DNA of 64,000 nt from Rhodamnia argentea. Taxonomy: Eukaryota > Streptophyta > Magnoliopsida > Myrtales > Myrtaceae. Below, one piece after another: positions 22,941 through 57,997 of this stretch. How positions within the stretch are numbered: position 1 is the stretch's first letter; every line of letters begins with the position of its first letter. The stretch spans positions 15,829,311 through 15,893,310 of the forward strand of contig NC_063155.1 in NCBI RefSeq assembly GCF_020921035.1. The letters are read 5' to 3'. The notes below the pieces were generated by a model, which saw only the letters and a list, made by a program, of their open reading frames with translations, did not search any database and had not been told where the DNA came from. The translations under genes were made by a program, and so were the position numbers.

Positions 22941-23096
22941 CACGAGTCAATCGGACGGCCGAGAAGGAAGATCCGGATTCGGCCCACAGTTGGGAGTCAA
23001 CATCTCTTCTTTATTGCTCTCCCGAGAATCTGCTCTTACTCACCCACCGCCGATACAGTAAAAGGATAATGTACTAACTAGAAAACCACCGACCAA

Positions 23097-23137
<41 letters not shown>

Positions 23138-26960: not shown

Positions 26961-28397
26961 AGATCTGGGTACGGTGGACGGTGCCAGAAAATCCGAGAAA
27001 ATAGTTAATGTTTTTTAGAGACCCGAAAAGTCAAGCTTCGTGTAGAGTTACTATTATAACCCTAGCAACCGACTTTGGTAATTACGAGACAGCACAAAGG
27101 GTATTATTGTAATTTGGTGGTCGGGGGTCGGCTTGTGAGGATAACGTTTTGCGCTTTGCCCGAAATTGGGAGTCAGCAGGTCTATTGTCGCTCTCATCAG
27201 AAATTTGCTAAAGCTCTCTTTTGACTAATCCAGAGAAACAAACCCAGCGCCAACTCGTGAATCGTAATTGAGTTTTGGCGTTGATCATGATTCTCTTGAT
27301 TAACAGATATATTACTCAATAGAATAAAAACAAGAGTTCGCAAATTATTTTGGTATGATTGGGAGAACGCGGGTAGAGGATTGCTGGAGTCTAGACCTTA
27401 AGCTTTTGCAGGTCATCCGGACAGTCTGCACGTAATCCGTGGACTTCGAATGCGTGACATCTAATGCCCAAGGAGAAAATGCCATAGACCATTTTAACAT
27501 TGGCCTTTTTGCAACAAGTTTCAGTAAAGCTCTTATTTTACGTTGATTGAATGATAACATAATAAAGATGAGATGAGCATCGAATTGCGATTTAACGGTG
27601 AGGTAAATCTCCGATACGTAGCTCAGGGTGCTTTTAAATACTTCATACTTGTTAAGTTAAATCATCTTTTGTGGTAAGTTAAATCAATTGATCGTCACTT
27701 CACAATACGAAATTAATAAAGTTTGTACAGTGTTCTCCGTTATGAACGCTACTAGAGTTATTCAATATCGCTCGATAGTGAACGCCACCGGGATCTTGTT
27801 CTTTGGGACCCTGGGGAAGCTTCCTCTCAATTTCGGACAAGGTCTGGTCAAAAAGAGGAATTGATATTCTTATTGATTTACGTCCCTTCACGTTTCCATG
27901 CATGAATCAAGTACCATACGTCAACCTGTCGGGAGCTGCACGGGGCAACGTTTGTAAGGGCGGACACGTGGCAGTCTCTTACACGTCCGTCATACTTAAG
28001 AATTGCTTGTGGCCCCCCCCCATCCTCTTTCTCCCACAAGATCCAGAAATCGAGTGAGGAAGTATTGCTGCGTATAAAGTAGATTTTTACTAAATGAGCA
28101 AATACAGAATGGTTGACCTAGAAAATCTTACGTGGAGTGTTGGAGATATTTTAGATATTTTTTAATATAAATTTAGGATATTTTTGCTAATTTTTTATAT
28201 TTAATTTGATTTACATTTATTTTTTTAGGTAATCCTCTCATAAAGCCCATAAATATACTCTTCACAGTACTTTTATTATTAATCAAAATGTGCAAAATAA
28301 AAATTCCAATGGGATTTGAAATCTGCATATATAATTTTTTTTCCACCACTTTATAGGTGGGCACCTCTCAATGGAATTGAAATTTTCTCCCCCGCGT
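26961..28397. other. Duplicated upstream region of GolS 3
   Basis: Non-coding. Much of it is similar in sequence and order to the upstream regions of copies 4 (31.2-32.4 kb) and 5 (37.5-38.9 kb), for example AACCCTAGC(A/G)ACCGACT, GCTTCCTCTCAATTTCGGAC and an ABRE block GACACGTGGC at 27963-27972. The gene and about 1.5-2 kb of 5' sequence were duplicated together. Confidence 0.6.
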
Positions 28398-28505
28398 TCC
28401 ACGTGTCGGCTCACGGTTCAAAGGACGGTGCAAGGACACGTGGCGAGAAAGGGCGCCTCTTTTTCCAGTCATGTTAGTTGGACCAAGAAGAGGTGGGTCC
28501 CACCG
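28398..28505. promoter_or_regulatory. Distal repeated block with paired ABREs (upstream of GolS 3)
   Basis: Both sites are intact: CCACGTGTC at 28399-28407 and GACACGTGGC at 28435-28444, followed by CAGTCATGTTAGTTGGACCA. The two ABRE cores form an inverted pair about 36 bp apart. Confidence 0.65.
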
Positions 28506-29703
28506 AATCCGTTTAGTTTTGATAAGGCGAATTCATCAAAAACGGTAAAACCAATCTTCTTCCATTCAAAGAATATTTCAAGTCCATTTAAGGGTAATAA
28601 TCGTTAATGATTTCTAAAGGGGGGGATAAAATTTGACTAAACCAATCTGAGAATCTCATTGGAATATTCTTTGATTCAACTTGAATAATCAATTCATTAC
28701 TCTCCTATAGGAACCGCATCCCCAGTTCCATTATCGATAATACTAGAAAAAAATGCGTAGTATGCACAAGGAAATATAACATCATAAAATTACGATAAAA
28801 GTTAAAATGATCTTCTCGCAATTTAGATAGAAGTCGCATATCACTAACGGACGGCAATTTATTCAACTAAGTTAAAAGTACTTTACAATTGACATTTCAG
28901 ATGAAGAAACTAGTCACTCTCTTTAAATCTACAAAATGATTTTTGATTCTCGTGGGATAATCTGCTTGGTTGTTGTGTATAATTAAATTATAAATTAATT
29001 ATTACCCGTTGGCAAATGATGAGGGACAACTCTTTAACGTTTCTCTCACTTGGAAGCCAAAAGTTTGATAAGGTAGATAAAAGGGAAATTACATAGGATC
29101 CGTGGTTAAGCGAGAGATCCGAGATAAACGCTTTCACAGCTTTAAACTTCTCAAATATTTTAGGGCCCTCCCTTTATCCAGAATGTTCATTTTCTCTTCA
29201 GCTCTTCATTCCATGCAAAGATTATAACCATTTCCATGCCATTTTTTCTCTCTATATTCATCAAATTGACAAGGGTTAATATATCATAGCGTAACAAGAA
29301 TGTGTGTAGAAAGAGTGCATAGCACCTTTTCTTCACTCCGCTATTTGTTTCTGTAGTTCTCCATTCTCTTCCTCGATGGTCTATGAAAAGATATTCATGG
29401 AGAGAATACATTGTTACTTAAAGAAAAATTCCGAAGAAACACAAAATGTACAACAAAAATAACATCTATTAATTTGAAATTTCGTTTTAACACATATTTG
29501 TACACATCAATCAGCAAAAGAAAACAACAAAAAAAAAAATAATTAAGAGGAAGGAATCTTTATCTTCAACCCCTAAATCGAGAAAACGACAGAGAAAATA
29601 AAACCCTTCCCTTTCGAGGAAAAAAAAAAAGAGCCACCAATTTCAATTGCAGCTGACTCTATAATTGCTCTACACGCTTGAACAAACCCCTAACTCCAAA
29701 CAA
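28506..29703. other. Spacer and 3' flank of GolS copy 4
   Basis: AT-rich with no recognised gene. The portion near 29460-29700 resembles the 3' flank of copy 5 at about 35.8-36.0 kb (AATTGCTCTACAC(G/A)CTT...), so the 3' flanks were duplicated with the genes. Confidence 0.5.
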
Positions 29704-30829
29704 CTAGGCTGCGGACGGGGCGGTTATGAAGCGGAAAGCTCCGGAGTCCGCCAACGCCGCAAGGAATCGATCCCATTTTGTTTGCTTCGCGGCTTCATCT
29801 CTAGCCACGATGTTTTTGTAGTCCAAGGACTCGTCATCGTAGATATCCCACCATTTTTTCACCAGCATCTTGATGTCGTCCCGGTCCATGTTCTCTTCCT
29901 CGCCCGTGTACCGCCACGGCTTCGACCCCGCGGCACAATAATGAACGACCTTCACCTTGTCCAGCTCAACATTCTCGGGGTGACGCCACAGCATCGCGAG
30001 CACGAGGTTGTACACATTCGGAATGGGTCTGTAGATGTCCTTGAAGTACATGTTCAGGAAGTCTTGTTCAGCAAATGAAGTCGGAGGTGTGATCTTGAGG
30101 GTTTCCAGCAAATCCTGGTAAGTGCCGAGGTTCGGCTCGTACACGAACATCCCGGCGTTGAAGTAGAAAGGCGGCTTCGGGCCAGCGTGGCCGGGCCATT
30201 GGACCTTGTCGGGGCACTGTTGGCAGTACCCGATCTGGTATTGAGGGGTGTGACTCCACGTCTTCTCGCAGAAACAGTCCATTACCGCGTAGAAGAAGCC
30301 GCGCTGGAGGTCGAACAGGTGGTCGATGTTGTCGAAGACTTGGATGTCTCCATCCAGGTAGATCATCTTACTGTACTCCACAAACTGCAATTCATGAAGC
30401 CACATCAATAACCGATAGTACTCCTCAGTCCTAACTTTGGAAGAAGCAGACAAAAATCTAAGATACAAAGAAATATCTGAAAAACCAAGTGCATACCTCC
30501 CAAATTCGGAGCTTGGAGTAGTTGATGACATAATAGGCCATGGCGAACTGAGTCTGGTTCTCCGGTGGATAGACGGGCTCGATCTCCCTTACAATACAGC
30601 CCTGATCCACCAGGATTTTCCGGTGATCCTCCGGCACGTCCGGCAACATCGCCACCACCAGGGGATACTTGCTCTTCACCTTCCTGAGCCCCTTGGCCAG
30701 CCCAACCACACCCTTCACGTAGTCGCCGTTTCCGGCCAAAAACGTCACGTAGGCACAGCTAGGCTGGTTCTCGGGCTTCGGTTTCACGAAGCCATTGGCG
30801 GCAGCATCGGAGGTGATGATCGGAGCCAT
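29704..30829 (-). CDS. GolS: Galactinol synthase, copy 4 (337 aa, two exons)
   Basis: Same enzyme family. Exon 1 is 30497-30829 (111 codons); exon 2 is 29704-30384 (226 codons plus stop). The 112-bp intron runs GTATGC...TGCAG. The DGD metal site is at residues 122-124, NAGMFVYEP at 187-195, HYCAAGSKPW at 259-268, with tail APSAA. Copy-specific changes include LQRGFFYAVMDC (LPNG or LPSG in copies 1-3) and PTSFAEQDF for PTPFAEQDF. The exon 2 frame stays open through the intron on its 5' side, so a longer open frame exists, but the GT-AG signals and the other copies support splicing. The N-terminus MAPIITSDAAANGFVKPKPE begins at the ATG about 122 bp after the TATA box. Confidence 0.96.
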
Positions 30830-31180
30830 TTCTTTGGCAGGAAAGGCTTGTGGTTTCCTGTGAGTGGAATGGAGAGTTTGCGTTTGAGAAAGTTTCGCAA
30901 TTGCTTGGCTTGGTTTGAGTTGATGGACTTAGCAGCAGGAGGTGCACGGTTTATATAGAGTTGGAGAGTTAATATTAAATTAAGGTGAGCAAATCTTGGA
31001 GATAATGTGGTGATCGCTTTCCTAATTCCTGTGATGGCGACGTGGGAAGGAAGCCGCTTGAATGCTGGCGTTTCATACCGACAAACCAAAAGATTTTCCC
31101 CTTAAACGAAGTCGTTTTGGAGCTCCACCGACAGATGGAAGTCCACGTGGTTCAGTGCGAGTCGATCGGTCGGTCGGTCA
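30830..31180 (-). promoter_or_regulatory. Promoter of GolS copy 4
   Basis: TATA box at 30951-30957, palindromic element AAACGAAGTCGTTT at 31104-31117, G-box CCACGTGG at 31143-31150, and two overlapping DRE cores ACCGAC on the minus strand at 31169-31174 and 31173-31178. This is the richest proximal DRE content of the array. Confidence 0.7.
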
Positions 31181-33185
31181 GTAAGCGCAGATCTGGGTAC
31201 GGTGGACGGTGCTAGAAAATGCGAGAAAATAGTTAATGTTGTTAATCTTTTGGGAGACCCCTCAAAGCTTTTGGTAGAGTTACTACTATAACCCTAGCGA
31301 CCGACTCAGTAATTACGAGATAGCGCAAAGGGTATCATTGTAATTTGAGGAATGTTGTGGTAGGGGCGGTTTGCGAGGATAACGCTATGCCCTTTGCCCA
31401 AAATTGGGAGTCGACAAGTGTGTTGTCGATCTCATGAGAAACTGCTACAACTCTTTTGACCAACCGAGATTTAAAACAAGGATAGGCTTAGCCAAAATGC
31501 CATAAAACAAAAAGTTGTAGAAGGAAGAAAAATAATAATAATAATTAACAAGCAAAAAATGATTATATTGTTCAAATAAACATATCTGTTTATGTTGTTT
31601 CAGCTCGTGAATCCTACTTGAGTTTGCAAATCATTTTGCATAATCAAGGAAATGGGGGCATAAACCCGGTTACTTGGAAGCCGATTGAACAATTTACCAA
31701 CCCCAACAATGAACAACTTAAGTCCAGACCTTGAGCTTTTGCAGGTGATCCTAACCAAAGTAATTTGCACGTCATTGGTGGGCTTCAAACAAGTGACATC
31801 CAATACCCGAGGTGAAAATGTCGTTATCCCCGACCAATTGCGCCTACCCCGAACGATTACAAACCATCTTAATATTGGCCTTTCACCCTTTAAATTTAAC
31901 AAAAGATCTAAGATGAGATGATGATCAATTTGTGATTTAACGGTGAGCTAAATCTCTAACACATAACTCGAGATGCTTTAAATACTTGATACTTGTTAAG
32001 TTAAATCATCTTTTGTGGTAAGTTAAATCAATTAATCGTCACTTCACAGTACGAAATTAATAAGTTTGTACAGTGTACTCCGTTATGAATGCTAGAGTTA
32101 TCCAATATTTGCTCGATGGAGAACGCCACTGGGATCTTATTTGTTGGGACCCTGGAGAGGCTTCCTCTCAATTTCGGACAAGTTTTGGTCAAAAAGAGGA
32201 ATTGATATTCTTATTTATTTATGTCCCTTCACGTTCCATGCATGAATCATGAATCATAAGTAAGTATCATGTCGGCAGCTGCACGGGTCCAATGTTGCGA
32301 GGGCGGACACGTGGCAATCCCTTACACGTCCGTCAGACTTAAGAATTCTTTGTGGGCCCCCCCTTCTCCCCTAAGATCCAGAAATCGACTGAGGATGTAT
32401 TGCTTAACTTTTACTAAATACGCAATGCAGAATGCTTGACCTAGAAAATGTTATATAAACCGATAGAGATATTTTAGATATATCTTATTTAAAAATATTC
32501 ATTATGTTTTCTCTAATTTTTTTTATATATTTTTTTATAATGTGTATCTGATTTGATTTTCCTGAATTTTTTTAAAAATAATCTTCTAAAATTCTCCAAT
32601 TCACTTTTCCGCATGATTGTTAATTTAGACAAAGTCAATATAAGATTTTCTCAAATTGGAACGTTATTTTAATTTGACATTGTATTAGTTATTTCGATTA
32701 TTCCAAGTATAATGCTAGGAATAGGAATAATACAAGGTTGTGGCCATTTTTTTGCACTGATTCATGGTGTTATTATTGACAGAGTGGGAGGGGTGATCAG
32801 CGTGATAATAATTTTCGAGCTTTACCTTAAAGGTTCCATTTTACTGAATAACTAGCCGGCACATGATATCATTCTTACTTGTAACGAAGGTTCCATTTAT
32901 TTAGCCAAAAAAATGAATAATTCAAAAAATATTTTAAAAAGACGATCGGTTGAAATAATTAATTATTAAGAAATATTTTCATTATCAATAATGATTTATG
33001 TCCAAATATTTCGTTGGGTGCGAAAATATTTTTCGTTAATTAATTTTTTCATTTAATATAAGTAATCAATTTTACAAAAATATTTTTGAATAATTATTTA
33101 TTTTCTGCGAAAATTGGAATCGAATGAGGGGCCCACATGCAGCCATTAAAGTTTCCTCTTGCGTTGCCGATATTGCTCGGAGCGT
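31181..33185. other. Duplicated upstream region of GolS 4
   Basis: Non-coding sequence similar to 26.96-28.06 kb, with an ABRE GACACGTGGC at 32306-32315. From about 32.45 to 33.1 kb it is AT-rich with no recognised feature. Confidence 0.55.
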
Positions 33186-33315
33186 TCCACGGGTCGGCTC
33201 AATGTTCAAAAGTCGGTGGGAGGAAACTTGGCGGAAAAGGGAGCCTTGTTGGGAGAGACCTCTTTTCCTTCCTTTTTCCAGCTATGTTAGTTTGGACCAA
33301 GGGGAGGTGGGTCCA
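33186..33315. promoter_or_regulatory. Distal repeated block, ABREs degenerated (upstream of GolS 4)
   Basis: Aligned with the other blocks, both sites have lost the CACGTG core: CCACGGGTCGGCTC and GGAAACTTGGCGG. The trailing text GCTATGTTAGTTTGGACCAA and GAGGTGGGTCC is kept. Confidence 0.55.
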
Positions 33316-36033
33316 CCGAATCCGTTTAATTTAGTAAGGCGAATTAATCAAAAGGGAAACTAAAATCTTCTCTCAATCAAGAATATTTTAAGTCCACTGA
33401 AGGGTTACAACCGTTACTGATTTGTAAGGGGGATAAAGTTTGACTAACCAATTTGAGAATCTCATTGGCATATTCTTTGATTCTTTGGATATCCAATCCA
33501 TTACTCTTTTACATGAGTCGTCTCCATTAAGACCACGTCTCATCGTTCGGCTACAACTCAGGATAAGATATGTTTTTTTTATCTTGTGCTTGGTAGTTAT
33601 CCAAAACAAGATAAAGTAGATATAAGCTATGATAAAATCTAAGAGGTGGGACAGAGTTATATGGGATTTCTCTTGTCTATGACACCACAAATTACACGCT
33701 TAACTCTTCGCCACGCCCCATCCACTTCTCGACCACCCCCGGCCGCCTCTCCGATCGCAGGCCGACTCTTCGATTGCAGCCGATCACCTCTCCGGCAACG
33801 AGTGGCGGGTTCTCCAACAAAGGCGCGTCTATCGATGGTGATCTCGAACCGGTTCGTCTTCCCTTTCTTTAGCCTCATCAACTCCACCGTTGAATCCCTC
33901 TCTTCGTTAGCTTCATATTATGTATTTCTTTTATACGTGGAGAACTATGTTAATTGGTTCTTGGATGTCTTAGAATCTCAAACTGAATCGAGATCATTAT
34001 ACTTCCTTGATTGTACATGTAAAGGATCCTAGATACCACCACTCAAAAAGTAAGCAAAAATGGAGCAATTCACATATATATCGAACTCCAAAATGTCTCT
34101 TTTCTCTTTTCTTTCTTTTTCAAGAAATTTAGAACCACAAATTCATAACCCTCACTTGGTTATTTAGTCTATGTTGGACATTTCAATAGTTTTGAAATAT
34201 TCTTTTACAATAGTTTTGATAGAATTTTGATCGCAATAATTAGTCATCGTTATTTCAAACGGACAGTTTTCGAATGACTTGCTCGGATATTGGAGAGCTC
34301 GGATGTTGGCGAGCTCAGATGTTGGCGAACTCAGAAGATGATGAGCTCAAATGTTGGCAAGCTCAGACTTTGAGAAGAGTCTAAGAAGCAACGTTCTCTG
34401 TCCTCCTTTAATTTATAACGGTTCTACCAACAAGTTTGACGTTTGCCAAACATTTTGACCACTCAAGCTCGATCAACCTCGGGTTAACTCTGAGCCTCCC
34501 TATTTCATTTTTTCATCTTTTGGGCTTCTCTTTTCATTGCCACGTCTCCATAAACAGATCAGATCACTTTCTTGGAAAACTCGGTTTGGTTTGGTTCGGT
34601 TCGGTTCGGTTCTCAGCTCCTCCCAGCCAGACTCCTGCAACTCCAGGCTCGAAACGCCCACCATCGGGATCTCCGACTCCAGATCCTTCCAGAGGAAAAC
34701 TCCCCGATCGCTCTCGTCCTCCCGCGGACGCCCGCGACGACCCAATGGTGGACACCTTGGGGCGCGATTGCTCACTCCGCCATCTCGCTTCCCACGTAAA
34801 ACTTGGGCGGCTAGTCAAAAGCGCAGATTTTTCCACCACTCGCTGGATCTTCACTTTCTCCTCTGTACTCCCGCTGGTTCATTTTTCTCTCTCGCCTTGT
34901 TCGATTCGTTGAAGGCCAGCGAGAGGGCGAGCCAGAGTCGGGCAGAGAGAGAGAGAGAGAAAGAGGGGGAGACATGGACCTTTATCGGGTCGGGTCAAGC
35001 CTTTGATTAAGGCAAACTCGAGCTCGACTTGATCGTTTTGAAACAAAATTTTTTCCCTTTTTTGGTTCAAAGGGATTATTTTCTTGTTTTAAACAAACTT
35101 TTCGGGTCAAGCCTTTGATTAACCCTTTCGATCTGATCCGAACAGGGTCATTTTCTTGTTTTAAAGGGTAAATTCTTTTTTTTAAAAAAGGGGAAAAAAT
35201 TAGGAAAACCGAAAAACCGAACCGTACCGAACCGAAAATTCAGTTCGGTTTGGTTCGGTTCGGTACGTATTTGGTTCGAGTGATGATCCGGTTCGGTTCA
35301 TCAATTTACCATAATAGTTCGGTTCGGTTATTAAAAAATCCCGAACTGAACCGTACTGTTGACACCCCTGCTATGGACAAGAAAATACAATATCATGAAA
35401 GTACAATAAAAGTAAAAAATGGTCTTCTCACAATTTAGATAGAAGTTGCAGATCACTTAAACGTGTTGTAATTTATTCCACTAAGTTGATTACCCTTTTA
35501 ACAATAGGCTCAAATTGAAGAAACGAATGTCACGCTCTTCGGCTCTACAAAATGGTTTTTGATTCATCCTTCAAGACATCTGTTGTGTATAACAAATGTT
35601 GGATCAATACATTAAACACTGCTCTCCGCGCAAGTAAAAAGCTTAAACTACCTCTTATCTGAGGTTCATTATTTCTTCAGCTCTTCATTCCATTCATAGA
35701 TTATAACCATATCCACGCCTTTTATTTCTTTTTCTTTTTTTTCGCTAAAGTAACATGTGTAGATTTCACGACAATAGATGTAGAACAAACCTAGCACGTA
35801 CAAATTCGAAATTTCGATTAAAATATATACGTACATCACTCAACAAAAGAAACACAAAAAGAAAAATAGAAGAAATCTTTAATCTTCAGCCCCAAAATCA
35901 GGGAATTGAAAGGGAACATAAAACGAAACTCTTCCCCTTTCAAGGCAAAAAAATAAAACATGAGCAGCCGATTCCAATTGTAGCCGGCTCTGTAATTGCT
36001 CTACACACTTAAAACAACCCTAGTTACATGCAA
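33316..36033. other. Spacer with GGTTCGGTTCGG-rich transposon remnant; no recognised gene
   Basis: Open frames at 33646-34032 and 34436-35010 (+) have no recognised domain or splice structure. From about 34.99 kb a direct repeat (CGGGTCAAGCCTTTGATTAA, copies near 34988 and 35103) precedes palindromic GGTTCGGTTCGG/CCGAACCGAACC text, which ends near 35369 in GTTGACACCCCTG. That is the inverse of CAGGGGTGTCAAC, a typical plant hAT-like terminus. The left end was not found. Confidence 0.45.
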
Positions 36034-37163
36034 CTATGCCGCGGACGGGGCGGTTATGAAGCGGAAAGCTCCGGCGTCCGCCAACACTGCGAGGAATCGA
36101 TCCCATTTTGTTTGCTTCGTGGCTTCATCTCTAGCAATGATGTTTTTATAGTCCAAGGACTCGTCATTGTAGATATCCCACCACCTCTTCACCAGCATCT
36201 TGATATCGTCCCGGTCCATGTTCTCTTCCTCGCCCGTGTACCGCCACGGCTTTGACCCCGCGGCACAATAGTGAACGACCTTCACCTTTTCCAGCTCGAC
36301 ATTCTCCGGGTGACGCCACAACATCGCGAGCACGAGGTTGTACGCGTTAGGAATGGGTCTGTAGATGTCCTTGAAGTACATGTTCAAGAAGTCTTGTTCA
36401 GCAAATGGAGTCGGAGGTGTGATCTTGAGGGTTTCCAGCAAATCGTGGTACGTGTCCAGGTTTGGCTCGTACACGAACATCCCGGCGTTGAAGTAGAGAG
36501 ACGGCTTCGGGCCAGCGTCGTCGGGCCATTGGACCTTGTCGGGGCACTGTTGGCAGTACCCGATCTTGAACTGAGGGGTGTGACTCCACGTCTTCTCGCA
36601 GAAGCAGTCCATTACCGCATAGAAGAAGCCGCTCTGGAGGTCGAAGAGGTGGTCGATGTTGTCGAAGACTTGGATGTCTCCATCCAGATAGATCATCTTG
36701 CTGTACTCCACAAACTGCAATTCAAGAAGCCAGATTAATATCACCAGGCTAATAGTACTTCTCAATCCTAGCTTTGGAAGAAGCTGACAAAAATCTAAGA
36801 TCCAGAGAAATATTTGATAACCAAGCATACCTCCCAAATTCTGAGCTTGGAGTAGTTGATGACATAATAGGCCATGGCAAACTGAGTCTGGTTCTCCGGC
36901 GGATAGACAGGCTCGATCTCCCTCACGATGCAGCCCTGATCCACTAGGATTTTCCTGTGATCTGCCGGCACGTCCGGCAAGATCGCCACCACGAGTGGGT
37001 ACTTGCTCTTCACCTTCCTCAGCCCCTTGGCCAGCCCAACCACACCCTTCACGTAGTCGCCGTTTCCGGCCAAAAACGTGACGTAGGCGCAGCTAGGCCG
37101 GCTCTCGGCCTTCGGTTTCACGAATCCATTGGTGGCAGCATGGGCGGCGATGATTGGAGCCAT
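36034..37163 (-). CDS. GolS: Galactinol synthase, copy 5 (337 aa, two exons)
   Basis: Same enzyme family. Exon 1 is 36831-37163 (111 codons); exon 2 is 36034-36714 (226 codons plus stop). The 116-bp intron runs GTATGC...TGCAG. DGD lies at residues 122-124, NAGMFVYEP at 187-195, HYCAAGSKPW at 259-268, tail APSAA. Copy-specific changes include PDDAGPKPS (PDHAGPKP elsewhere) and IYNDESLDY. The frame is open for another 84 codons upstream to an ATG at 37415, but that stretch contains the TATA box and the duplicated promoter, so MAPIIAAHAATNGF at 37163 is the start. Exon sequences match copy 4 most closely. Confidence 0.96.
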
Positions 37164-47408: not shown

Positions 47409-48092
47409 TCACTCACACCTTCAATATCCATGTCATGACACAATTTCTTAAGCAGAGTCGTCTTCCCACACCCACTCGGGCCAATCACAACAATAACAAA
47501 CACTCCCTCCTCCATCAACCGCTCCTTGAGCTTCCTCAAGGATGGCCTTCACCACCTAACTGACAATGAAATTGGGTGCCATAGGGACCGCGAGGTTGCT
47601 CGAAGCCCCGAGCCCGCTCTGGAGGGCCCCGCCGTTCGCTTGATGATTGGAATGGATCATCTCCTGAACTCCTATCCTCATCTCCTTAACTCCCGCACTC
47701 ATCTACCATAAAATCTCCCCATTGGTCCTTGTGTTTAGCAGCGGCATGTAAATCTGGAACTCCCTCAAGACTTCCGCATCGAACTTGGTCAGCTTCTTTT
47801 AATACATAAATTACTTCCAAAAGTTGAGTTGGCGGATCCTTGAGCACTTCTCGACCAGTCTTTTGTCTTCAACAAATAAGTCCTTGATCGGATCCATCTC
47901 TCTTGGACTATGGTCTAGCCGTTGGTTGTACTCATCCCATTTGTTGATGATTGGGTCTATTTTGCTCAAGATGGATTCAATCTTGTTGACCTGGGGACGA
48001 AATGCTGTAACGGTTCACACTCCCTTCTTAACGACCGACAACAGCTCACTGGATGCTGTTTCCACAGCAGTTCCTACAATATCAACCGACAT
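47409..48092 (-). pseudogene. RPW8-type NBS-LRR (ADR1/NRG1 class) first-exon pseudogene
   Basis: On the minus strand an ATG at 48092 opens MSVDIVGTAVETASSELLSV, the start of an RPW8 domain, followed by coiled-coil-like text (VNKIESILSKIDPIINKWDE). It ends with LKERLMEEGVFVIVVIGPSG and CGKTTLLKKLCHDMDIEG, the P-loop end of exon 1 in this class. A donor-like GTGTGAGT follows at the place where these genes have an intron. In-frame stops occur near 48022, 47814 and further on, and there is a frameshift before LKERL. The second exon (rest of NB-ARC and LRR) is not seen nearby. Intact members are helper NLRs that act downstream of sensor NLRs. Confidence 0.8.
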
Positions 48093-48892
48093 TTCTGTTT
48101 TGCAAAGGATGCTTTTCTCTGCTCTTTTGTGTTCTTCTGGTTGTTTCGAAGAGGTAAGAAGGATGAGGTTCCAGACGATTTCTTCCTTGGGAAGGGCAGA
48201 GCTAAAGAGTAGAGAAGTAAAAAGATGTGTTTCATGGAACTGAAGGAAGATGTCCAGAAGGCTGTTTGCAAAGACATGGTTGAGAACAAGAGATCGAGTC
48301 GGTTTACCGCTTCGTCATCCTCATTTTCTCTAAGACAAAGGATCAAGAAAACGCAAACACTTCTCGCCAGTTCATCTTCAGAATTTGCAAGAATTTGAGT
48401 GGAAAGAGAGCATTCTTTTTGAAGAGTGAAAATCTTGCCTGGTCTTAACTCTGAACGTACCTCTTGTAGTACAGTGCTTGCCTTGAAAATCTTAACTAGA
48501 GAAGAGAAGTCTTTTGTTTCTGCTTAGCCTACGAAACCAATCCACCTAATGGTGGATACTCAATTCGTGGAGAAGAAGAATAAACACAGACTCATCTTGT
48601 CTTGCATGAAAAAGCCATTCTTTTCCTTTGACCGAAAAGCATGCCCAATTCGTCATTAGCTTTCACTTTTTGCTTGCATTTTTTTTTTTTTTTTGCTCTG
48701 TAGGATTTGTGAATCTTATCAAGTTAATTTAGGGTATAATGAATGGTAACCCAAATTCAAAGTTACAAATCCCATACATAACATTGCAAATGTCATGGAA
48801 ATCTATCTTGCATCTTACACATGCATCAAGCATGCATAGCACATATGAACGCAGGAACAAGTACCACCTTAAGGCATTTGCTTATAGACACA
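48093..48892. other. Spacer and left flank of the CACTA element
   Basis: No gene is supported. From about 48.70 kb this is the resistance-gene upstream repeat (GGATTTGTGAATCTTATCA, CATACATAACATTGCAAATG), cut at 48892 by the CACTA element. Confidence 0.5.
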
Positions 48893-48899
48893 CACTACA

Positions 48900-49610
48900 A
48901 AAAAATGAGGATTTAGTGACGAATTTTGCCACGAAAAATTTTGCAAAATTCGTCGCTAATTGACTTTTGCGGCGAATTTTGCCACGAAAAAAAATTCGTG
49001 GCTAATCGGGCGTCGCAAAATTTAGCGACGAAATTTTGAAGTTTCGTCGCTAAATTTTGCGCCGAAAATATATTTCTTCGCTAAAGTCGTCGCTAAAATT
49101 TAGCAACGAAAATTCCATTTTGTCTCTAACATTTAGCGACGAAAAGTATTTTTTGTCGCTAAATTTAGCGACGAAAAGTATATTTCGTCGCTAAAATTTT
49201 AGCGACAACTTTAGCGACGAAAAGTATATTTTGTCGCTAAAATTTAGCGACGACTTTAGCGACGAAATATATTTTTGTCGCAAAATTTAGCGACGAAATA
49301 TATTTTTGTCGCAAAATTTAGCGACAAAATTTCAAAATTTCGTCGCTTAATTTTGCGACGCCGGATTAGCCACGAATTTTTTTTCGTGGCAAAAGTCGTC
49401 GCAAAAGTCAATTAGCAACGAATTTTGCAAAATTTTTCGTGGAAAAATTAGCGACGAAATCAACTTTTCGTCGCTAAATTTGATTCGACGAAATTTTTTT
49501 TTTGCCACGAATATTATTCAGCGATAAATTTGGCAACGAAATTTGTTCAGCCATGACTTTTGCGACGATCGGGCATCGGACGAATTTTGCGACAAACTTT
49601 TATAATTTGT
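48900..49610. repeat. Left subterminal motif array of the CACTA element
   Basis: Dense direct and inverted copies of (T)TAGCGACGAAA and related TTTTGCCACGAA motifs, spaced by short A/T tracts. Such subterminal clusters are the transposase-binding regions of CACTA elements. Confidence 0.85.
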
Positions 49611-50105
49611 GATCGTATAATAAAATAATTTCTTTTAATTTTCAATTTTAAATATAATTAAAAACAAAATAAATTTCTAGAATTTGTATTTAACATTGAT
49701 AAAGCAAGATCTAAATATTATTATAATATGCAAACCAAATACATTCATCTACCATTCATGGACAAAGCTTCCCATCTTCAACTTTATTTACTGCAATGAA
49801 AATTTGAGAGCCAAAAGGAGAGAGAACGAAATTTCAACTCTATTAACTGCAATGAAAATCTTGATCTGATCCTTGCCTCAGAAGCATCTCTTCTGGTAAT
49901 CAGAATAAGTTAAAATAGGAATTCACATAAACAATTAATATCAGAACATCAGATTTCTGTACTTGACCAGCAATTTTTTTTTTCAGCTTTTCAGAACTAA
50001 GGTAAATATGACCTGCTAACAAGTCAGATATCCAGGACTTGTGATAACAATGAGATTATGCATCACAAGGATTCTACTTGCTAAATAGACAAGCTGACGC
50101 ATCAG
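49611..50105. other. Internal CACTA segment, 3' side of the captured CLC-g fragment
   Basis: AT-rich sequence with no identified domain. It may include captured intron or 3' sequence of the channel gene. Confidence 0.35.
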
Positions 50106-51602
50106 AAGACAGCAGGGTATTACGACACTTCATCATACCAAGATGCCATCTCTTCAAGGGCAAACAGCAAACCACCAACTGGGGCACGAAATGCAGCAGC
50201 AATTCCAGCAGCTGATCCCCATGTTACAAAGTCTCGCCGATCTCGATTGTTCTTGAAATACCGAAGCCACTTCCAAATTAAAACCATATTTCTTTGACCC
50301 ACCTTGACCCTATAGTGATGCAATACAAGCATCAGTGTGGACCAAGGGTCCAGCCTTGCCAACAAGAAGAGATGATGACACTGCAGAAATGCTTCCAATA
50401 ATCTGTCGATTGAATAATGCCCCATCAAATTCACAAACTTGAGACAGAACATCCTTACAAGGCTATGCCTTAAATGACAAATTAACTGAACAGTTACCCT
50501 TCCAGACATGGGGGAAAATCATGTTAACTCAAACGGCAACTCTATTCCAAGCATAACATGATGATACTCTCTTACAAGCCTATTACGCTCCATCTCACAC
50601 CCAGGGTTGGAAGAGATGCTTATGAAACCACCAACAAGGAAATCCCAAGATACATACAATTAGAAACCTGCCAAGCAAGAAACCAAATGCATGAAATTTT
50701 ACCTTCACAAATAACGTTCTCAATGTAAAAATTCCTAGTGCATCCACACCATTGAGGTAAGCCTTAACTTCTGGAATACCCGAACCAGCAGCAGCTGGTG
50801 ACACCAATGCTGTGATAAGGGCCGCAAAAAAAGTGAGCCCGAAATTGGTAAGAGAAAAAACAAGAAAGGCCATTCCAAACCTGCAGGAGGAATTAGATGA
50901 TATTACCAAGGTTTCCTCTACTTGGAAGATGAAAAAAGCAAACTTCTACTAACAAAGCGAGTCCAAAGCTTTCTTTTCTGAGTACTTAAGACTCTGAGAA
51001 AACTAAACAGTTCTGATTGCAAATTCCTTTGACTCTGCATACATCCATAGATAACAGAAGACCTCCAATTTAACTAAGCCTATTTTGCTTAATGCTCTTA
51101 ATCTTAGATTGACTCAGAAACACAACAAATAGCAATGATTTTAGTAGTGATTTCACTACCTGCGTTCCAACATCATATCTGAAGTGATCACGAACTTAAT
51201 TCCTGCAAGGTTCTCAACAGCAAGGTTGATGCAGAACCCAATAACACCAACACCAACAATCCCACCAATCAAAAAGCACAACAACCACTTCATAAAAATG
51301 TACTGGAAGATCTGGATCTTCCCTCTTGTCCTCCAATCTTGCTTGAAAAAATCATTTTCTGCAATCTTGCACCCAAGAGCCAACAATTCCCACGAAAAAT
51401 AACTAAAAAAGCTCCAATTTCTGCTAGTTAAATAACTCGGGTACTGAAAAAGACAAAACATGATGATGAATGAAGTCTCAGAAAATGACCCCAGAAAGGA
51501 GATAAACTTACTCATAATCAAGGCTCTCGATCGGGCACACCTTGGCTCCAACAATGGCCACCTGTGAAGTGGAGTTTGTCCGTCAGACAATGGCAGAGAC
51601 AC
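50106..51602 (-). pseudogene. CLC-g: Captured CLC-g-like chloride channel gene fragment with introns
   Basis: Minus-strand exon pieces appear in gene order. VAIVGAKVCPIESLDYE (about 51564-51514) is followed, after an intron, by IAENDFFKQDWRTRGKIQIF...ENLAGIKFVITSDMM (about 51383-51170). Next come FGMAFLVFSLTNFGLTFFAA and PAAAGSGIPEVKAYLNGVDA (about 50880-50702), ending before a GT donor. Then [32 protein letters not shown] and a stop before GQGGSKKYG (about 50400-50300). A frameshift later come [20 protein letters not shown] and [15 protein letters not shown] (to about 50120). Wording fits plant CLC-g, whose intact form is an endomembrane anion transporter. The pore motif has Ala where other CLCs have the gating Glu (GKAGP). 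Stop, frameshift and missing ends make it non-functional. Introns are kept, so the capture was of genomic DNA. Confidence 0.88.
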
Positions 51603-51711
51603 TGCATCAAACTAGCTAGCACACAGGAGATACCCGTGAAGCAGACTTATGACAATCAATAACTTCTCAGACACAAGAGACCCAAACATTTGCCAGAACC
51701 ACATCACCAAC

Positions 51712-51816
51712 CTGTCCCTGCTGAAAATAAGCTTTTGCATTGTTCTCTCCATCACGTACTGCAAATTCAGCATCCAACAATGCTCCCTTCAGATCACATA
51801 GTTTCAATTTACAAGC
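51712..51816 (-). pseudogene. CYP40: Captured CYP40 (SQUINT-type) TPR exon
   Basis: Exactly one open exon of 105 bp on the minus strand: ACKLKLCDLKGALLDAEFAV then RDGENNAKAYFQQGQ, preceded by an acceptor (TATTGCTCCAG) and followed by a donor (GTTGGTGATG). It matches the TPR region of plant cyclophilin-40, an Hsp90 co-chaperone that promotes AGO1 loading. Flanking sequence looks like intron. It lies just upstream of the CLC-g fragment on the same strand. Another TPR co-chaperone is possible but less likely from the KLKLxDLKGALLD wording. Confidence 0.8.
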
Positions 51817-51924
51817 CTGGAGCAATATATTCTTGTCAAACCAATCATTTTGATCTTCAAAGCTTCCTCTTGGCTCTCATAGAGTCTAGCATCGACCAGA
51901 AACTACGTACCCAAGAGAAATTCT

Positions 51925-52290
51925 AGTGAAACAAACGAAATTTGCAAACACTGAACAAAAAACAAGATGCCAAGAAAACCAAAATCCAACCTTCTCCAAC
52001 TCCATGCTTCTCTGGCAGGAGACGCCTCGATGCAGGCCAGCGGCTCGGATCGGCGTCTCTCAAGGAATGCAGCAGCAGATCGTCGTCTCCTAGAAGCCGA
52101 ATCTTGGACAGCACCAAGACCCTCGAAGCCATGAACTTGGACCCCATCTCGCGCAACCCATCGAAGCGGAGGAACTCCTGGTTCGAGAGGTCGAGGCGCT
52201 TGAGGGGCAACGGGAACTGTGCAATCTGGCGGAGGACGAAGGACGGATTGCCGCGAAATGGGCTGAGGTTGATGGACTTGAGGGATGTGA
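51925..52290 (-). pseudogene. Captured gene fragment, LRR-like
   Basis: A minus-strand frame reads RHFTSLKSINLSPFRGNPSF...FPLPLKRLDLSNQEFLRFDG...VLVLSKIRLLGDDDLLLHSL. The LxxLDLSNQ pattern and GC-rich plant codon use suggest an LRR segment, perhaps from an F-box/LRR protein. The family call is tentative. Confidence 0.45.
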
Positions 52291-52396
52291 AGTGCCGGGA
52301 TCGACCATCCTACGAACCTCTCCCTCCTATAGAATGGAAATCATGACCGACCGATTGGGGAATTCCCGGCAACATTCTAGGTTTTGGATAGGAATC

Positions 52397-52670
52397 AAAA
52401 GTGAGACACGGGAATTTTTACGAGGTTCGCCGCGATTTGAAACAACACGGAGCGAGAGTAAGCAAATAATAGCAGATCCCGCACAAAGAAGGAAAAGCAA
52501 GTGCACACTACCTCGACGAGAATTCCAGCACGTTTCTCATCGCAATCGCGGGCCGAATCGAACAAAAGCGACGAACGCCTGAAGAGACTCGGACTCCAAG
52601 AGCTCAAAATGGTTGGACGAGACCTCGATCATCTCGAGCTCGCACCAATCGCCGTGCCGTTACGGGAAGG
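52397..52670 (-). pseudogene. Captured 5' exon-like fragment of unidentified gene
   Basis: On the minus strand a GC-rich exon-like stretch contains SWSPSLFRRSSLLFDSARDC and ends AGILVE before GTAGTGTG, a plausible donor. It could be the first exon of the LRR-like gene beside it. No family is recognised. Confidence 0.35.
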
Positions 52671-52783
52671 CCACAAAAAAAAAGGGGTGAGGAGGGAGTC
52701 AGGGCGCGGGGGTCAAAAGGTTGGGGATGGAGAGGGAAAAGGAAAAGAAAAAAGAAAGAACGCGGCAAATGGGTTTTGTTTGG

Positions 52784-54240
52784 GAACTTTAGCGACGAAA
52801 ACTCATTTTCGTTGCCAATTTAGCGACAAAAATGCATATTCATCGCTAAATTAGCGACGAAAAAAAGGATACGTCACTAATTTAGCGACGAAAAATTTAT
52901 TTCGTCGCTAAATTAGCGACAAATAAATGGATTCGTCGCTATTTTGAATATTTTATTTTTTATTTTTATTGATATTCTATTAGCGACGAACCACTTTTTC
53001 GTCACTAAATTGAATATTTTCTTTTTCGTTTTTTTTCATATTATATTAGCGACGAATCACTCTTTCGTCGCTAATTTAGCGACGAAATTGTTGTTTCGTC
53101 TCTAATTTGAATATTTTATTTTTTATTTTTATTCATATTCAATTAGTGACGAATAATTTGTTTCGTCGATAATTTAGCGACGAACCATTTTTTTCGTGGC
53201 TAATTAGCGACGAACCATTTTTTTTTTGTGGCTAATTTAGCGACGAACCATTTTTTTCGTGGCTAATTTAGCGACGAACCATTTTTTTCGTGGCTAATTA
53301 GCGACGAACCATTTTTTTTTGTGGCTAATTTAGCGACGAACCATTTTTTTCGTGGCTAATTTAGCGACGAACCCTTTTTCGTCACTAAATTGAATATTTT
53401 CTTTTTCATTTTTTTTCATATTATATTAGCGACGAATCACTCTTTCGTCGCTAATTTAGCGACGAAATTGTTGTTTCGTCGCTAATTTGAATATTTTCAT
53501 TTTTATTTTTATTCATATTCAATTAGCGACGAATAATTTGTTTCGTCGCTAATTTAGCGACTAACCATTTTTTTCGTGGCTAATTTAGTGACGAACCATT
53601 TTTTTTCGTGGCTAATTTAGCGACGAACCATTTTTTTCGTGGCTAATTAGCGACGAACCATTTTTTTTCGTGGCTAATTTAGCGACGAACCCTTTTTTTC
53701 GTTGCTAAATTAGCGACGAAATAGTTTATTCGCCGCTATTCTTTTTTATTTTTATTCATATTCTATTAGCAACGAATTTTTCTTTCGTTATAATTTGAAT
53801 ATTTTCTTTTTTCTAATTTTTATTCTTAATTTATTAAATTTTTATTTATTCTATTTATTATTAAATATTTTCTTTCTATTCTTATTTTTGAAAAAAATAG
53901 AATTCAAAATAATTCGAATTTGGAATTCTATCCTATTGGAAATTTCGTCGTTAAATGAGTAACGAAAAATGAGAACAATCTGAAGCTTCTCTATCCTATA
54001 GAATAGCGATAAACTTAGTTTTTTGTCGCTAATTTTGAGATAAACTTGTTTGTCGCTATGTAGTGACAAATTTTGCAACGAATATTTTTTGTCGCCAATT
54101 ACTAAATTCGTTGCTAATTTTGCGATGATTTGTTTTTTGTCGCTAATTAGCAAGGACTCGCATCTATATTTGTTGGTAATTTGACAATGATTTTTTTTTT
54201 GTCGCTAATTAGCGACGAATAGTCCAATTAGCGACGAAAT
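52784..54240. repeat. Internal motif array of the CACTA element
   Basis: TTAGCGACGAA(A/C) and inverted TTTCGTCGCTAA motifs alternate with CATTTTTTTCGTGGCTAA units. A longer repeat (about 420 bp) is visible: the text from TTGAATATTTTCTTTTTC to GTGGCTAATTAGCGACGAAC near 53.01-53.27 kb recurs near 53.39-53.66 kb. Confidence 0.85.
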
Positions 54241-54243
54241 TAG

Positions 54244-54261
54244 CCACGGCACTTGCCGTGG
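54244..54261. repeat. Perfect 8-bp inverted repeat at the array/plastid junction
   Basis: CCACGGCA-CT-TGCCGTGG is a perfect hairpin with a 2-nt spacer. It sits where the motif array stops and plastid-derived sequence begins (about 10 bp further right). Confidence 0.8.
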
Positions 54262-54271
54262 AAAAGAAAAA

Positions 54272-54401
54272 GTGATAAAAACGAATAAGCCTCAATTCCA
54301 ATAAATTATATCTTCTACTAAAACATTAGGAAATAGAAGCCCTTTTGAAAGAAGCTATCCAGGAACGGAAGGAACGCTTTCTACTTCGGGAACAAGGATA
54401 A
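54272..54401 (+). pseudogene. atpA: Plastid atpA 3' end fragment
   Basis: Plus-strand text translates as KTNKPQFQ, a stop, IISSTKT, then after a small deletion EALLKEAIQERKERFLLREQ and a stop. This is the C-terminus of the plastid ATP synthase alpha subunit. The changes from the expected text at the end (QEQ to QER, LLQEQ to LLREQ), an in-frame stop and the deletion show long decay in the nucleus. Confidence 0.85.
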
Positions 54402-54614
54402 TAAAAATAAATAAATTGATCGCTCTTCATTTTTGCTTATTAATGTAATCTTTACTTAATTAATAATATATTCAGTTTTTTAATTTAAATAATATTCACT
54501 CTATTTCATTTTCTATTAAAAAGAATGAATATAAATTAATAGAAAATAGAATATAAGAAATAACATAAATAAGCTAAGCTAAATGACGTATTATAGGCAT
54601 TTCTTATTTAAATC
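54402..54614. other. AT-rich segment between two plastid fragments
   Basis: Position after atpA suggests plastid intergenic DNA, but I cannot confirm this by eye. Confidence 0.35.
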
Positions 54615-54955
54615 ATTCACCGTTTAAAGAAAGAAAGGATCCCAAAGAATCGATCTTTCTTTTATTTGTTGAATCTCTCCTTGATTGATCAATGTGTGAT
54701 ATTCTGAATCCTCACTACTAATGGAATCGAAATGATCTTTGGATTGATCGGAAGATCCTTTCAATTGGCTAGAATCCGTTACTTGAACGAAACTATATCT
54801 TGTATAATCATATCTAATATTTGACGATACATTCTGTACTTTGCTAGAAAACCGATCCTTGTTTACCAACCACACATTGTCTAATCAAATCCAATTATCT
54901 CTCGATATGTTCCTAAAAAATTCCGATTTGGGCATATTCTTCCCCCTACTAATGC
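54615..54955 (-). pseudogene. ycf2: Plastid ycf2 fragment
   Basis: Minus-strand text gives FFRNISRDNWI, a stop replacing Trp, [40 protein letters not shown] and [19 protein letters not shown] before a stop. This is an internal part of plastid Ycf2, several hundred residues from its N-terminus. An 83-codon open frame remains at 54624-54875 by chance. ycf2 and atpA lie far apart in plastid genomes, so the two pieces were joined during or before nuclear insertion. Confidence 0.9.
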
Positions 54956-55378
54956 CTTTCTTAAGCTTTCATGATATTTTATTAGTCAAAATAAAAAAGA
55001 AATAATTTTTCCTAATTTTGAAAAAAACTTCATTTTTTCTGATAATGTTTTTGAAAACTTCATTAATTGATTTAGAACATCTCTTATTCGTTGATAGTAT
55101 CTTATCTATCTTAGAAGAAAGAGTCGATCAATTTCATTTTTCTGAATGACACAATTACAATATATATTTATGGCGATTTAATATTATGCAAAGCGAATCG
55201 TTTTTGAATAGATCCTTACTCTACTCTATTTGGTACCTCATCAAAGTTAAATATTTTTCTAAGCTATATTTTATCAAAAAAATAGATCTCTATTTTTTGT
55301 TTGTTCACTACTTTATATATGTAATAAATATAAAAAAAAGGTTCTAATAAACATGGAAAAAAATATAAATTAAGGATA
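54956..55378. other. AT-rich segment of unknown origin inside the CACTA element
   Basis: Very AT-rich and possibly organellar, with no recognised gene. Confidence 0.35.
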
Positions 55379-56300
55379 GTAATTAGCGACAAAAACAGTC
55401 ATTCGTCGCAAATTAGCGATGAATGACAATATTCGTCGCTAACTTTTAAGAAGAGAATTTACGACGAAAAACGTGATTCGTCACTAATTAGCGACGAAAT
55501 AGGTTTTTGTCGCTAAATTCTTAGCAACAAATTTGCGACGAAATTTGGTTTTCGTCGCTAAATGCTTGGCAACAAATTTGCGACGAAATTTGGTTTTCGT
55601 CGCTAAATGCTTAGCAACAAATTTGCGACGAAATTTAGTTTTCGTCACTAAATGCACAATAGGAGGTTAGCGACGAAAAACACTGTTCGTCGCTAATTAT
55701 TTTTTATTTTTATTTTTATTTAAATCATATTAGCGACGAATAATACATTTTATCGCTAAATTAGCGATGAAAATATTTATTCGTCGCTAATTTTAATTTT
55801 TTCTTTCTTATTTTTATTCATAATGTTAATTTTGCGACAAAAATAACAGTTCGTCGCTAACTTTTAAGAAAAGAATTTGCGACGAAAAAAGGTGTTCGTT
55901 GCTAATTAGCGACGAAACGTGGCCTTTCGTCGCTAATTGGCGACGAATTATATTTTTGTCGCAAAGGATATAGCGACGAATAATATTTTCATGGCTGTTT
56001 TTGTCGCTAATGTGCGACGAAATTTTTTTTGTTGCTATTTTCGTCGCAAATTAGCAACGAAATATTGTTCGTGGCCATTGTCGTTGCAAATTAGCGACGA
56101 AAACTATTTCATGGCCATTTTCGTCGCAAATTAGTGACGAAAACTATTTCGTGGCTATTTTCGTCACAAATTAGTAACGAAATTTGTTTTCGTCGCTATA
56201 TTCGTCGCTAATTTCGTCGCAAATAGCGACGGATATTATTTTTGTCGCTATTTTCGTCGGAAATTAGCGACGAATGTTTTTCGTCGCAAATTTTTCGTGG
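55379..56300. repeat. Right subterminal motif array of the CACTA element
   Basis: Same motif set as on the left, with a local tandem triplicate (TTTGCGACGAAATTTGGTTT and neighbours near 55.53-55.65 kb). It ends in CGTGGCTAAATCCGTG before the terminal inverted repeat. Confidence 0.85.
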
Positions 56301-56324
56301 CTAAATCCGTGTTTTTTTGTAGTG

Positions 56325-57321
56325 ATAACTAGTTACAAAGCAATACTTTGCATAAATATTGCACGTGTTAAGAATTTAGTGAAAAGTGCATGTGAATTAA
56401 GCTTTTAGGGTTTACATTTTAATTTGAGCACCTGTAGATTTTAAAAAAAAGTATATATTGACGGGATTGAAGTATGTTTATTGCAATATTTCTAATAATT
56501 AGATCATTAGAAACATTCACAACCAAAATATTCATGCCTGTAGATTTTAATACACCTATTTGGCAGTATGGATGGCTTATAAAATCGATTCCTTGAGAGA
56601 TTCTACTTAAGTTGAGGGGCAAGAACACACTTATTTTCGACCATTGAGTTGAAATGAGTGATCTAAAATGTATAGATGAATTGTTGGATATTGACTCTGA
56701 TGACCATGTACCTTTCGCTATAATCCATGGAACAAGAGGTATTGGTAAATCCTATCTTGCTAGCATTATTTTCAATCAATTCTAGTCTAAATTCAATTGT
56801 AGTAGTTTCCTTGAAGATCTCGGTTGTCGTGGTTTTCTAGACGTGCAAAAGAAACTACTATCTCAAACACTGGGGTTGACCTCTACTCAAGAAATCTATG
56901 ACATCAATGGAGGCATGGATCACATAAATACAGGACTTGGCAAAAAGAAAGTTGTCATTGTTCTAGATAATATGGACAAGAGGAAGGAACTCAAGAAACT
57001 CGCAGTGAGATGCAATTGATTTGGTACCAATAGTGGGATCATTGTCACTGTTAGGGCATATGGACAATACTAAATGAAGACAACGAAACATGAGCTAGCA
57101 ATTACTTGGCCTACCTAGTATTGTAGATACCTTTGGATCAAGTGACTCCCAACAGTAGACGGAAGTGGAACAATACAATACCTTTGGATCAACCGACTCC
57201 CAACGGTAGACGGAAGTGGAACGATATATTGAGGGACTTAAAGCAAGTCCCGTGTGGGAAAGTCCGAGAAACATTGATGATTAGTTTGAATCTAGACAAA
57301 AAGTCATATGCCTAAAGATAT
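56325..57321 (+). pseudogene. TIR-NBS-LRR remnant, copy 2, 5' part
   Basis: Upstream repeat, then a paralog of the 46.2-46.6 kb fragment: LDIDSDDHVPFAIIHG, GIGKSYLASIIFNQ (P-loop, near 56.74 kb), FLDVQKKLLSQTLG and KKKVVIVLDNMDKRKELKKL (kinase-2, near 56.96 kb). A tandem duplication of about 54 bp (GTAGACGGAAGTGGAAC, near 57.15 and 57.20 kb) precedes LRDLKQVPCGKVRETLMISL, the end of the ARC1 region. Several stops interrupt it. Its continuation lies beyond the TRIM element at 57998. Confidence 0.82.
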
Positions 57322-57997
57322 TATTGGGAGTGTGCTGCAGAAGCTCGATACCTTCACCCGTGGTTATCGCTAAGATGGTGTCCAATTCCGACTCGTCAAC
57401 ATATTTAGTTGGATACATTTTTACTCAAAAGCTTAAGCCAATGAGTTATGGACCAATTACGATATATTAACCACTCAACACCATACCACTTATCCAATGT
57501 GGGACTTCTTTAACATAACTTACATGTGCATTCTAACAATCTCCCCATCACATATGAGCTTCAGTATTAGGTTTGCTCCCTTTTAATTCAAGTATAATTT
57601 TGCATCAATATATCTCAACTTGAATTTCCATCAATGCACATCAGACTAGCGTTGCTACATCACAGCAACTACCGGCTCGGAAACCGTGTTGGTCACTAGA
57701 TTTCTTCCTTGAGATATTCACCAAACACCAATACATATTGGGAGTGGGCCACCAATTAACTATCAACTCTAATACAATTTGTTGGAAGCGCGTAGTAGAA
57801 GTCTGATGTCTTCGCTCAGGAAAATCATTTAGAAGGAGCCCAAGTCAGAGTCCATTAACATATTTAGCTGGATTCACCTTCACTTAAGAGCTTAAGCCAA
57901 TGGGTTATGGGCTAATTAGGATATATTAACTGCTCAACACCACACTACTTATCCGATATGGAACTTCTCTAACATCACTCACACGCACATTCCAACA
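57322..57997 (-). mobile_element. TRIM retrotransposon with two LTRs and perfect target duplication
   Basis: LTRs at 57322-57538 and 57780-57997 (about 217 bp) share AAGAAGTCCCACATTGGAT-type text and end in TGTT(A/G)GAA...(C/T)CAA(C/T)A on the minus strand. The interior of about 240 bp has GTATTAGAGTTGA next to the upstream LTR, a weak match to the tRNA-Met primer site, and a purine tract (GATGGGGAGAT) before the downstream LTR. The flanks are GATAT on both sides. No coding sequence is present. It splits the resistance-gene copy within the NB-ARC region. Confidence 0.88.

Follow-up and report, generated by a model that had tools for sequence, protein, structure and literature searches.

How does a single DNA transposon come to carry pieces of several unrelated host genes together with chloroplast DNA? 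The question is raised by a 64,000-base stretch of the Rhodamnia argentea genome (contig NC_063155.1, positions 15,829,311 to 15,893,310; hereafter the window). Positions 48893-56324 of the window (7,432 bp) are a non-autonomous, multi-fragment CACTA element of the 'Pack' type, with cargo from five nuclear genes and three plastid loci. The element very probably grew by serial, copy-type capture, in which breaks inside earlier cargo were repaired with DNA copied from elsewhere. Full-length copies, surviving donor genes and relatives with less cargo, all found in the same genome, carry this answer.

Ends and motif arrays of the element

The whole element (48893-56324) has exact CACTA ends and is matched by two full-length copies, L009 and L010. 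Its terminal inverted repeats have the sequence CACTACAAAAAAA, on the plus strand at the left (48893-48905) and, as an exact match, on the minus strand at the right (56312-56324). Over the whole window and at up to one mismatch, CACTACAAAAAAA is confined to these two ends. The repeats begin with CACTA and the subterminal arrays consist of short direct and inverted motifs, both features of the CACTA superfamily. The array motif GCGACGAA/TTCGTCGC occurs only inside the element, with 0 occurrences in the other 56,400 bases of the window. It builds three arrays, at about 48.9-49.6, 52.8-54.2 and 55.4-56.3 kb. Array A1, of TTAGCGACGAA motifs, occupies 48893-49620, as defined by motif counts and self-comparison. 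The internal array A2 (52786-54245) is defined by its motif, and a similar inner array exists in the transposase-bearing relative L042. It is followed by a 16-base palindromic junction (ACGGCACTTGCCGTGG, 54246-54261) that is also present in L021 and L009. Array A3 with the right end (55381-56324) is 73.6% identical to L042 over 55730-56324. The matching ends and motif arrays that a first-pass annotation had read from the letters of the window are confirmed. BLAST comparison of the element with the window gave zero matches beyond the element, an Rfam scan of 48000-57500 gave no match, and a search of viral contigs found no relatives of the motif arrays or of ycf2.

Much of A1 is a large imperfect palindrome. 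Its arms (48903-49098 and 49273-49468) are 196 bases each and 88% complementary, and long hairpins could form in transcripts crossing this left near-palindrome (48903-49468).

Nuclear gene fragments and their donors

The host genome (346.7 Mb, 74 contigs) was searched with the cargo, and fragment-matching loci without arrays were recognized as donors. The nuclear cargo derives from five loci on five chromosomes, encoding a CLC protein, CYP40, a poly(A) polymerase, an F-box/LRR protein and a SINA-type ubiquitin ligase. All five fragments lie on the minus strand of the element and the donors are still present elsewhere, as in Pack-CACTA elements.

The CLC fragment (49875-51577, minus) keeps four exons (about 51512-51561, 51160-51366, 50703-50880 and 50139-50402) with their introns. 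It matches plant CLC-a over 233 residues across the introns (E 4e-82). The donor is the CLC gene L011 at C4:16.92 Mb, which is intact over the copied part and 95.6% identical, introns included. In L011 the flanking reading frames continue on both sides, and the CLC domain is recognized with E 3e-28. The exons of a second CLC gene, L012, are only 78-84% similar. CYP40 sequence stands on both sides of the CLC piece. To the right is the main fragment (51578-51830, minus; exon 51712-51816), 94.8% identical over 51582-51830 to L025 at C11:20.19 Mb; to the left is a remnant of the 3' part (49830-49874, minus), with 94% identity to the same donor over 49830-49879. The 35-residue exon by itself gives no significant match, PDB search included, and the fragment is therefore identified through L025, which has a cyclophilin domain (E 2e-38) and the exons of the fragment.

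The nuclear poly(A) polymerase fragment (51843-52014, minus) is 87.8% identical to L034 at C8:1.77 Mb, which carries PAP_NTPase exons (poly(A) polymerase, E 1e-15). Next to it is a stretch of junction DNA (52015-52079) that sequence comparison finds in common with L021 and L028. The F-box/LRR fragment is in two parts, both minus. Part 1 (52080-52300) is 91.0% identical to L032 at C3:34.77 Mb, and part 2 (52689-52753), which also has a match in L033, is contiguous with part 1 in L032 and L028. LRR domains were found in L032 and its F-box was recognized by eye; it is one of several similar places and a candidate F-box donor only. Inside the F-box/LRR piece lies the 5' region of a SINA-type ubiquitin ligase gene (52301-52688, minus), 87.5% identical over 52302-52712 to L031 at C6:29.02 Mb, which has a Sina zinc finger (E 2e-29). 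This piece comes from upstream of the RING-coding frame and is therefore probably promoter, 5' leader or first intron. A PDB search with the 128-residue LRR/poly(A) polymerase frame gave no significant match.

The CLC piece with introns and the single CYP40 exon of the first-pass annotation thus hold, and the donor search that it had suggested found CLC, CYP40 and LRR-type loci elsewhere in the genome. Its LRR-like piece has a real F-box/LRR source but is in fact two sources, the poly(A) polymerase having been missed, and an exon that it had left unnamed is the SINA 5' region, by the match to L031. The proposed mix of at least three nuclear sources and organellar DNA is exceeded.

Full-length copies and nested captures

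The CLC block has 15 matches in the genome, and four of these are near full length: the window, C4:28.47 Mb, C6:3.05 Mb and the donor at C4:16.92 Mb. At C4:28.47 Mb and C6:3.05 Mb the entire composite is present, including the plastid block, between the same 13-base ends. Their flanks show no mutual match with the window flanks. The composite therefore exists in more than one copy between identical ends, as in Pack-CACTA elements. The two further copies are 7,411 bp (L009) and 6,882 bp (L010). Leaving the tandem arrays aside, any two of the three copies are about 1-4% apart, and up to 7.9% in one 63-bp block. For the window, substitution beyond the arrays amounts to 0.8-3.2% against L009 and to 2.2-3.5% against L010, save this block at 7.9%. 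The arrays vary in repeat units, most in A2 of L010. Other copies of the element, for which the first-pass annotation had called, are thereby found at two other sites. What it had named as fatal to its reading, a normal gene order with no second copy, is excluded by the copies, their unlike flanks and the remaining donors.

Relatives with less cargo survive elsewhere in the same genome. A query with 51640-52785 gave 49 matches, seven of them full length, namely the three CLC-bearing copies and four CLC-less elements, L021-L024. These four hold CYP40, poly(A) polymerase, F-box and SINA pieces. In the interval equivalent to 49872-51582 they have about 1.5 kb of further CYP40 gene sequence, and a single BLAST match of L021 to this gene spans 1.8 kb. 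Over the CYP40 interval L021-L024 differ mutually by 1.6-2.9%, and from L025 by 5.9-6.7%. In the window lineage 1.7 kb of CLC fills the same interval, and CYP40 is left on both sides. Element L028 has the poly(A) polymerase and F-box pieces and no SINA or CYP40 match. Its F-box sequence, like that of the donor L032, is uninterrupted at the point where SINA is inserted in the window lineage. Because of these relatives with less cargo, the comparison indicates serial, nested capture. In trees of the shared gene blocks the members group by cargo stage, with node support from weak to strong. Two junctions are informative. At the left CYP40/CLC joint the bases GCCT are common to both parents, and at the joint between CYP40 and poly(A) polymerase about 13 bases of other DNA lie in between.

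Plastid DNA in the right half

The plastid block holds pieces of three loci. The first is the 3' end of atpA (54262-54394, plus), which matches the atpA C-terminus (E 4e-13) and contains a stop and a frame shift. A further stretch of the block (54395-54619) has no match to C23, C43, C46 or C61, four small contigs that match the plastid block. The ycf2 fragment (54620-54952, minus; E 1e-44) is 93.1% identical to an open ycf2 frame on C23, and the petA-psbJ spacer fragment (54951-55380) is 86.2% identical to the same contig over 54951-55383. Contig C23, the one of the four that was read, is plastid-like. It has the long open ycf2 frame and frames recognized by eye as psbJ, psbL and psbF, from which the neighboring spacer was named, also by eye. 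Matches on several contigs may reflect an unmerged plastid genome. The first-pass annotation had found atpA and ycf2, and had missed the spacer.

A query with 54262-55380, scored for 40 of 85 candidates, gave at least 42 matches. At least 17 nuclear places cover at least 757 bp of the block. Nine of the 17 begin at or before query base 15, and five begin at 130-137, just past atpA. The atpA piece is not at this joint in L038 or L028. In L038, one of the five, the position of atpA is occupied by a remnant of the transposase start, which makes atpA a likely later addition.

Could the block be a later nuclear plastid insertion that landed in the element by chance and has nothing to do with capture? 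Three joined plastid loci are typical of nuclear plastid inserts, and the genome has other partial matches to the block. However, the block recurs in these 17 or more places, and all six of the 17 that were read (the window, L009, L010, L021, L038 and L041) lie among family arrays, with both ends not found in L038 and L041. In addition, atpA joined at another step than ycf2. We consider chance insertion unlikely. Under serial capture the plastid DNA would have come straight from the organelle, not from older nuclear plastid inserts.

Transposase-bearing relatives and the proposed route

The 26-base 3' end, with up to three mismatches, occurs at 337 genome sites (165 + 172), and a reversed control gave 0. 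These are end matches and not elements, since some elements may match at both ends. Transposase_21 has 112 matches in the genome. The proximity of the two was tested with 65 zero-mismatch ends and 78 of the 112 transposase matches; the 34 omitted are mostly second matches of places already entered, with some short weak ones. Transposase_21 is found within 12 kb on the inside of 15 of the 65 exact ends, and at 0 on the outside. Over 1000 trials with randomized ends the mean was 0.17 and the highest count 3. All 15 transposases are on the strand that is minus in window orientation, the cargo strand. Autonomous relatives with the same ends thus carry Transposase_21 (Tnp2), again a feature of the CACTA superfamily. 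L042, the sole transposase-bearing piece read, has its last 600 bases in common with the window element (74%), the inner array and a Transpos_assoc domain (E 6e-21). The side of A3 and the right end is the transposase-start side in L042. About 45 residues of the transposase start are kept in six of 14 members tested (L028, L029 and L035-L038); in L038 the remnant was found by tblastn and is unrecognized by Pfam. It is absent in the window, L009, L010, L021-L024 and the fetched part of L041.

We propose the following route. The element would be moved in trans, presumably by Transposase_21 relatives with the same ends, which are candidate partners only. A break or gap in its interior would be filled with DNA copied from another locus, and the fill would be joined through short homology or filler DNA. 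The enlarged element would then transpose. In the first stage poly(A) polymerase and F-box/LRR pieces would have entered, in the second SINA (inside F-box) and CYP40, and in the third CLC, replacing 1.5 kb inside CYP40. The plastid pieces would have entered via the right half, which was seemingly exchanged between family members.

A different route is described in a review for Arabidopsis Pack-CACTA (PMC13317346). Two CACTA elements that flank chromosomal DNA lose their facing ends and become one hybrid element. Inner array A2 and the modular right halves could be traces of such a fusion. However, fusion predicts contiguous chromosomal DNA between the arrays, and the pieces here are nested and from five chromosomes; the transposase-bearing L042 has an inner array as well. 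For the gene cargo this model is already strained, and we regard it as quite improbable.

Some observations weigh against serial capture by break repair. Clear microhomology is seen at one gene junction only. All 9 of the 9 other members for which both ends were located have exact 3-bp target-site duplications, against 0 of the 3 CLC-bearing copies (Fisher 0.0045). These three copies diverge little despite their inexact duplications. Their flanks are ACA/ATA in the window, ATA/TTA in L009 and ACG/ACT in L010. Two of three flank bases agree in all three pairs (chance of at least that in all three, 0.005), and mutated duplications are therefore possible. Exchange between copies was looked for as a cause of the inexact duplications, and none convincing was found. 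The count leaves out L026, L027, L030, L033 and L038, in which no clean, single pair of ends is seen at 1 mismatch. L027, whose 5' end has two mismatches, has exact flanks (ACA/ACA), as does the outer end pair of L033 (AAA/AAA), both outside the 9 of 9. L041 has the right half of the window element at 90% with other left cargo, its 5' end lying beyond the fetched piece. In the plastid-block tree the window and L009 are closer to L041 than to L010, and halves therefore seem to have been exchanged between family members. From this right half and tree position the history is partly reticulate, and the order of the capture stages is parsimony and not proof.

Strand and coding potential of the cargo

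The shared minus orientation claimed in the first-pass annotation is borne out for the nuclear pieces, and equals the transposase strand. All eight identified gene pieces of the family are on this strand (CLC, CYP40, poly(A) polymerase, F-box, SINA, UPF1, ACT-domain and Methyltransf_PK; coin-toss probability 0.004). The plastid atpA piece is on plus. The UPF1 piece of L028 has E 6e-22 (Pfam only 0.035), the ACT-domain piece of L035 is under the curated cut-off, and the Methyltransf_PK piece is in L038. None of 13 distinct plus-strand frames tested had a match, while 4 of 19 minus-strand frames were accepted (UPF1, ycf2, ACT and Methyltransf_PK); the frames were chosen by eye, more minus than plus, and are not a full survey. 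A weak STATB_N match was taken as chance, and so were EcsB, TrbL and TAT matches. The less loaded L028, L035 and L038 carry further gene pieces, and the family thus samples more genes.

The family may be a directional fragment collector, a tentative and somewhat doubtful extension of serial capture. Captures would persist only in transposase orientation and in the former interval of the transposase gene, in less loaded members beside the start remnant. They would build up as breaks within earlier cargo were repaired again and again from organellar and nuclear templates, and the genome would hold a readable fossil series.

Among the copies, exon and non-exon sequence have diverged about equally (exon/non-exon 1.45/1.13, 3.21/2.90 and 3.21/2.74%). 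Within CLC, exons differ less than introns between the donor and the copies, as in a working gene, and no such lower exon divergence is seen among the copies themselves. In the window, CLC exon 4 contains a stop and a broken frame, and the exon-2 acceptor is lost. L009 has lost the same acceptor, with CLC exons individually open; in L010 the exon-1 acceptor is gone and a stop is present. The exon-1 acceptor of donor L011 was left out of this comparison, its match having fallen at a wrong place. Neither the purifying selection nor the intact frame of a functional chimeric gene was found. An apparent joint open frame of CYP40 and CLC, running up to a stop, is rejected, since the CLC exon 1/2 borders behind it were one base off and the window exon-2 acceptor is lost. 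The cargo today is most likely decaying non-coding passenger DNA and not a new gene, because exon divergence among the copies is no lower than intron divergence and every CLC-bearing copy has a damaged frame or splice site. A putative chimeric transcript of the minus-strand cargo is possible, and would run from the right end. A chimeric protein is unlikely, given the damaged frames and splice sites and the apparently neutral evolution of the exons. A selected chimeric transcript or small protein, for which sense orientation is functional, would suit the 8 of 8 strand count, the survival of most CLC splice sites and the open exons of L009, but is highly improbable given the exon divergence among copies and the stops, frame break and lost acceptors across all three CLC pieces.

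Surroundings of the element

Tandem glycosyltransferase family 8 genes occupy 17979-37089 on the minus strand (three of three frames tested match PF01501, E <=1e-28). By eye we take them to be galactinol synthase-like, about five in a row. A tRNA-Ile gene (anticodon AAT) is predicted at 17137-17212, minus. To the right of the element, at 56690-57019 on the plus strand, is a broken NB-ARC-like disease-resistance piece, with a weak match under the cut-off.

Discussion

Multi-fragment capture by CACTA elements is already known. The direct precedent is Tgm-Express1 of soybean, a 5.7 kb CACTA element that, in the accessible text, has exon and intron pieces of five unrelated host genes and splice sites used in chimeric transcripts (PMC1947982). 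The element described here is also CACTA, of similar size and with five unrelated host gene sources. Unlike Tgm-Express1, its capture order is readable from relatives, it includes plastid DNA and it is known from genomic sequence alone. CACTA ends and gene pieces mobilized as a unit are likewise found in Arabidopsis Pack-CACTA, Chenopodium and grapevine elements, as far as the available portions of these reports go (PMC13317346, PMC8978399, PMC2528002). The Chenopodium and grapevine examples there have one or two fragments each, fewer than here. In grapevine a PPR piece runs antisense to the transposase; here every identified nuclear gene piece is sense. The Pack-TIR gap-filling model for animals, in the part of its source at hand (PMC8277862), likewise involves break repair inside a transposon, template switching and microhomology. 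The present case differs in being from a plant, with donors on five chromosomes and fills that would be repeated, nested and then transposed. No report of plastid or other organellar DNA in CACTA or Pack elements was found among the titles and abstract openings listed for the literature at hand, a weak negative as subscription journals are poorly covered. The unusual part is the plastid cargo together with the preserved intermediates.

How DNA transposons capture genes mostly has to be guessed from the end products. In this case a single assembly contains the donors, the intermediates and the final composite, so that capture order, junctions and strand bias are directly readable and capture models, repair filling versus neighbor fusion, can be compared on it. 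Chloroplast DNA is multiplied in the nucleus as transposon cargo. If the directional collector reading is true, a fossil series of capture can be read in this genome.

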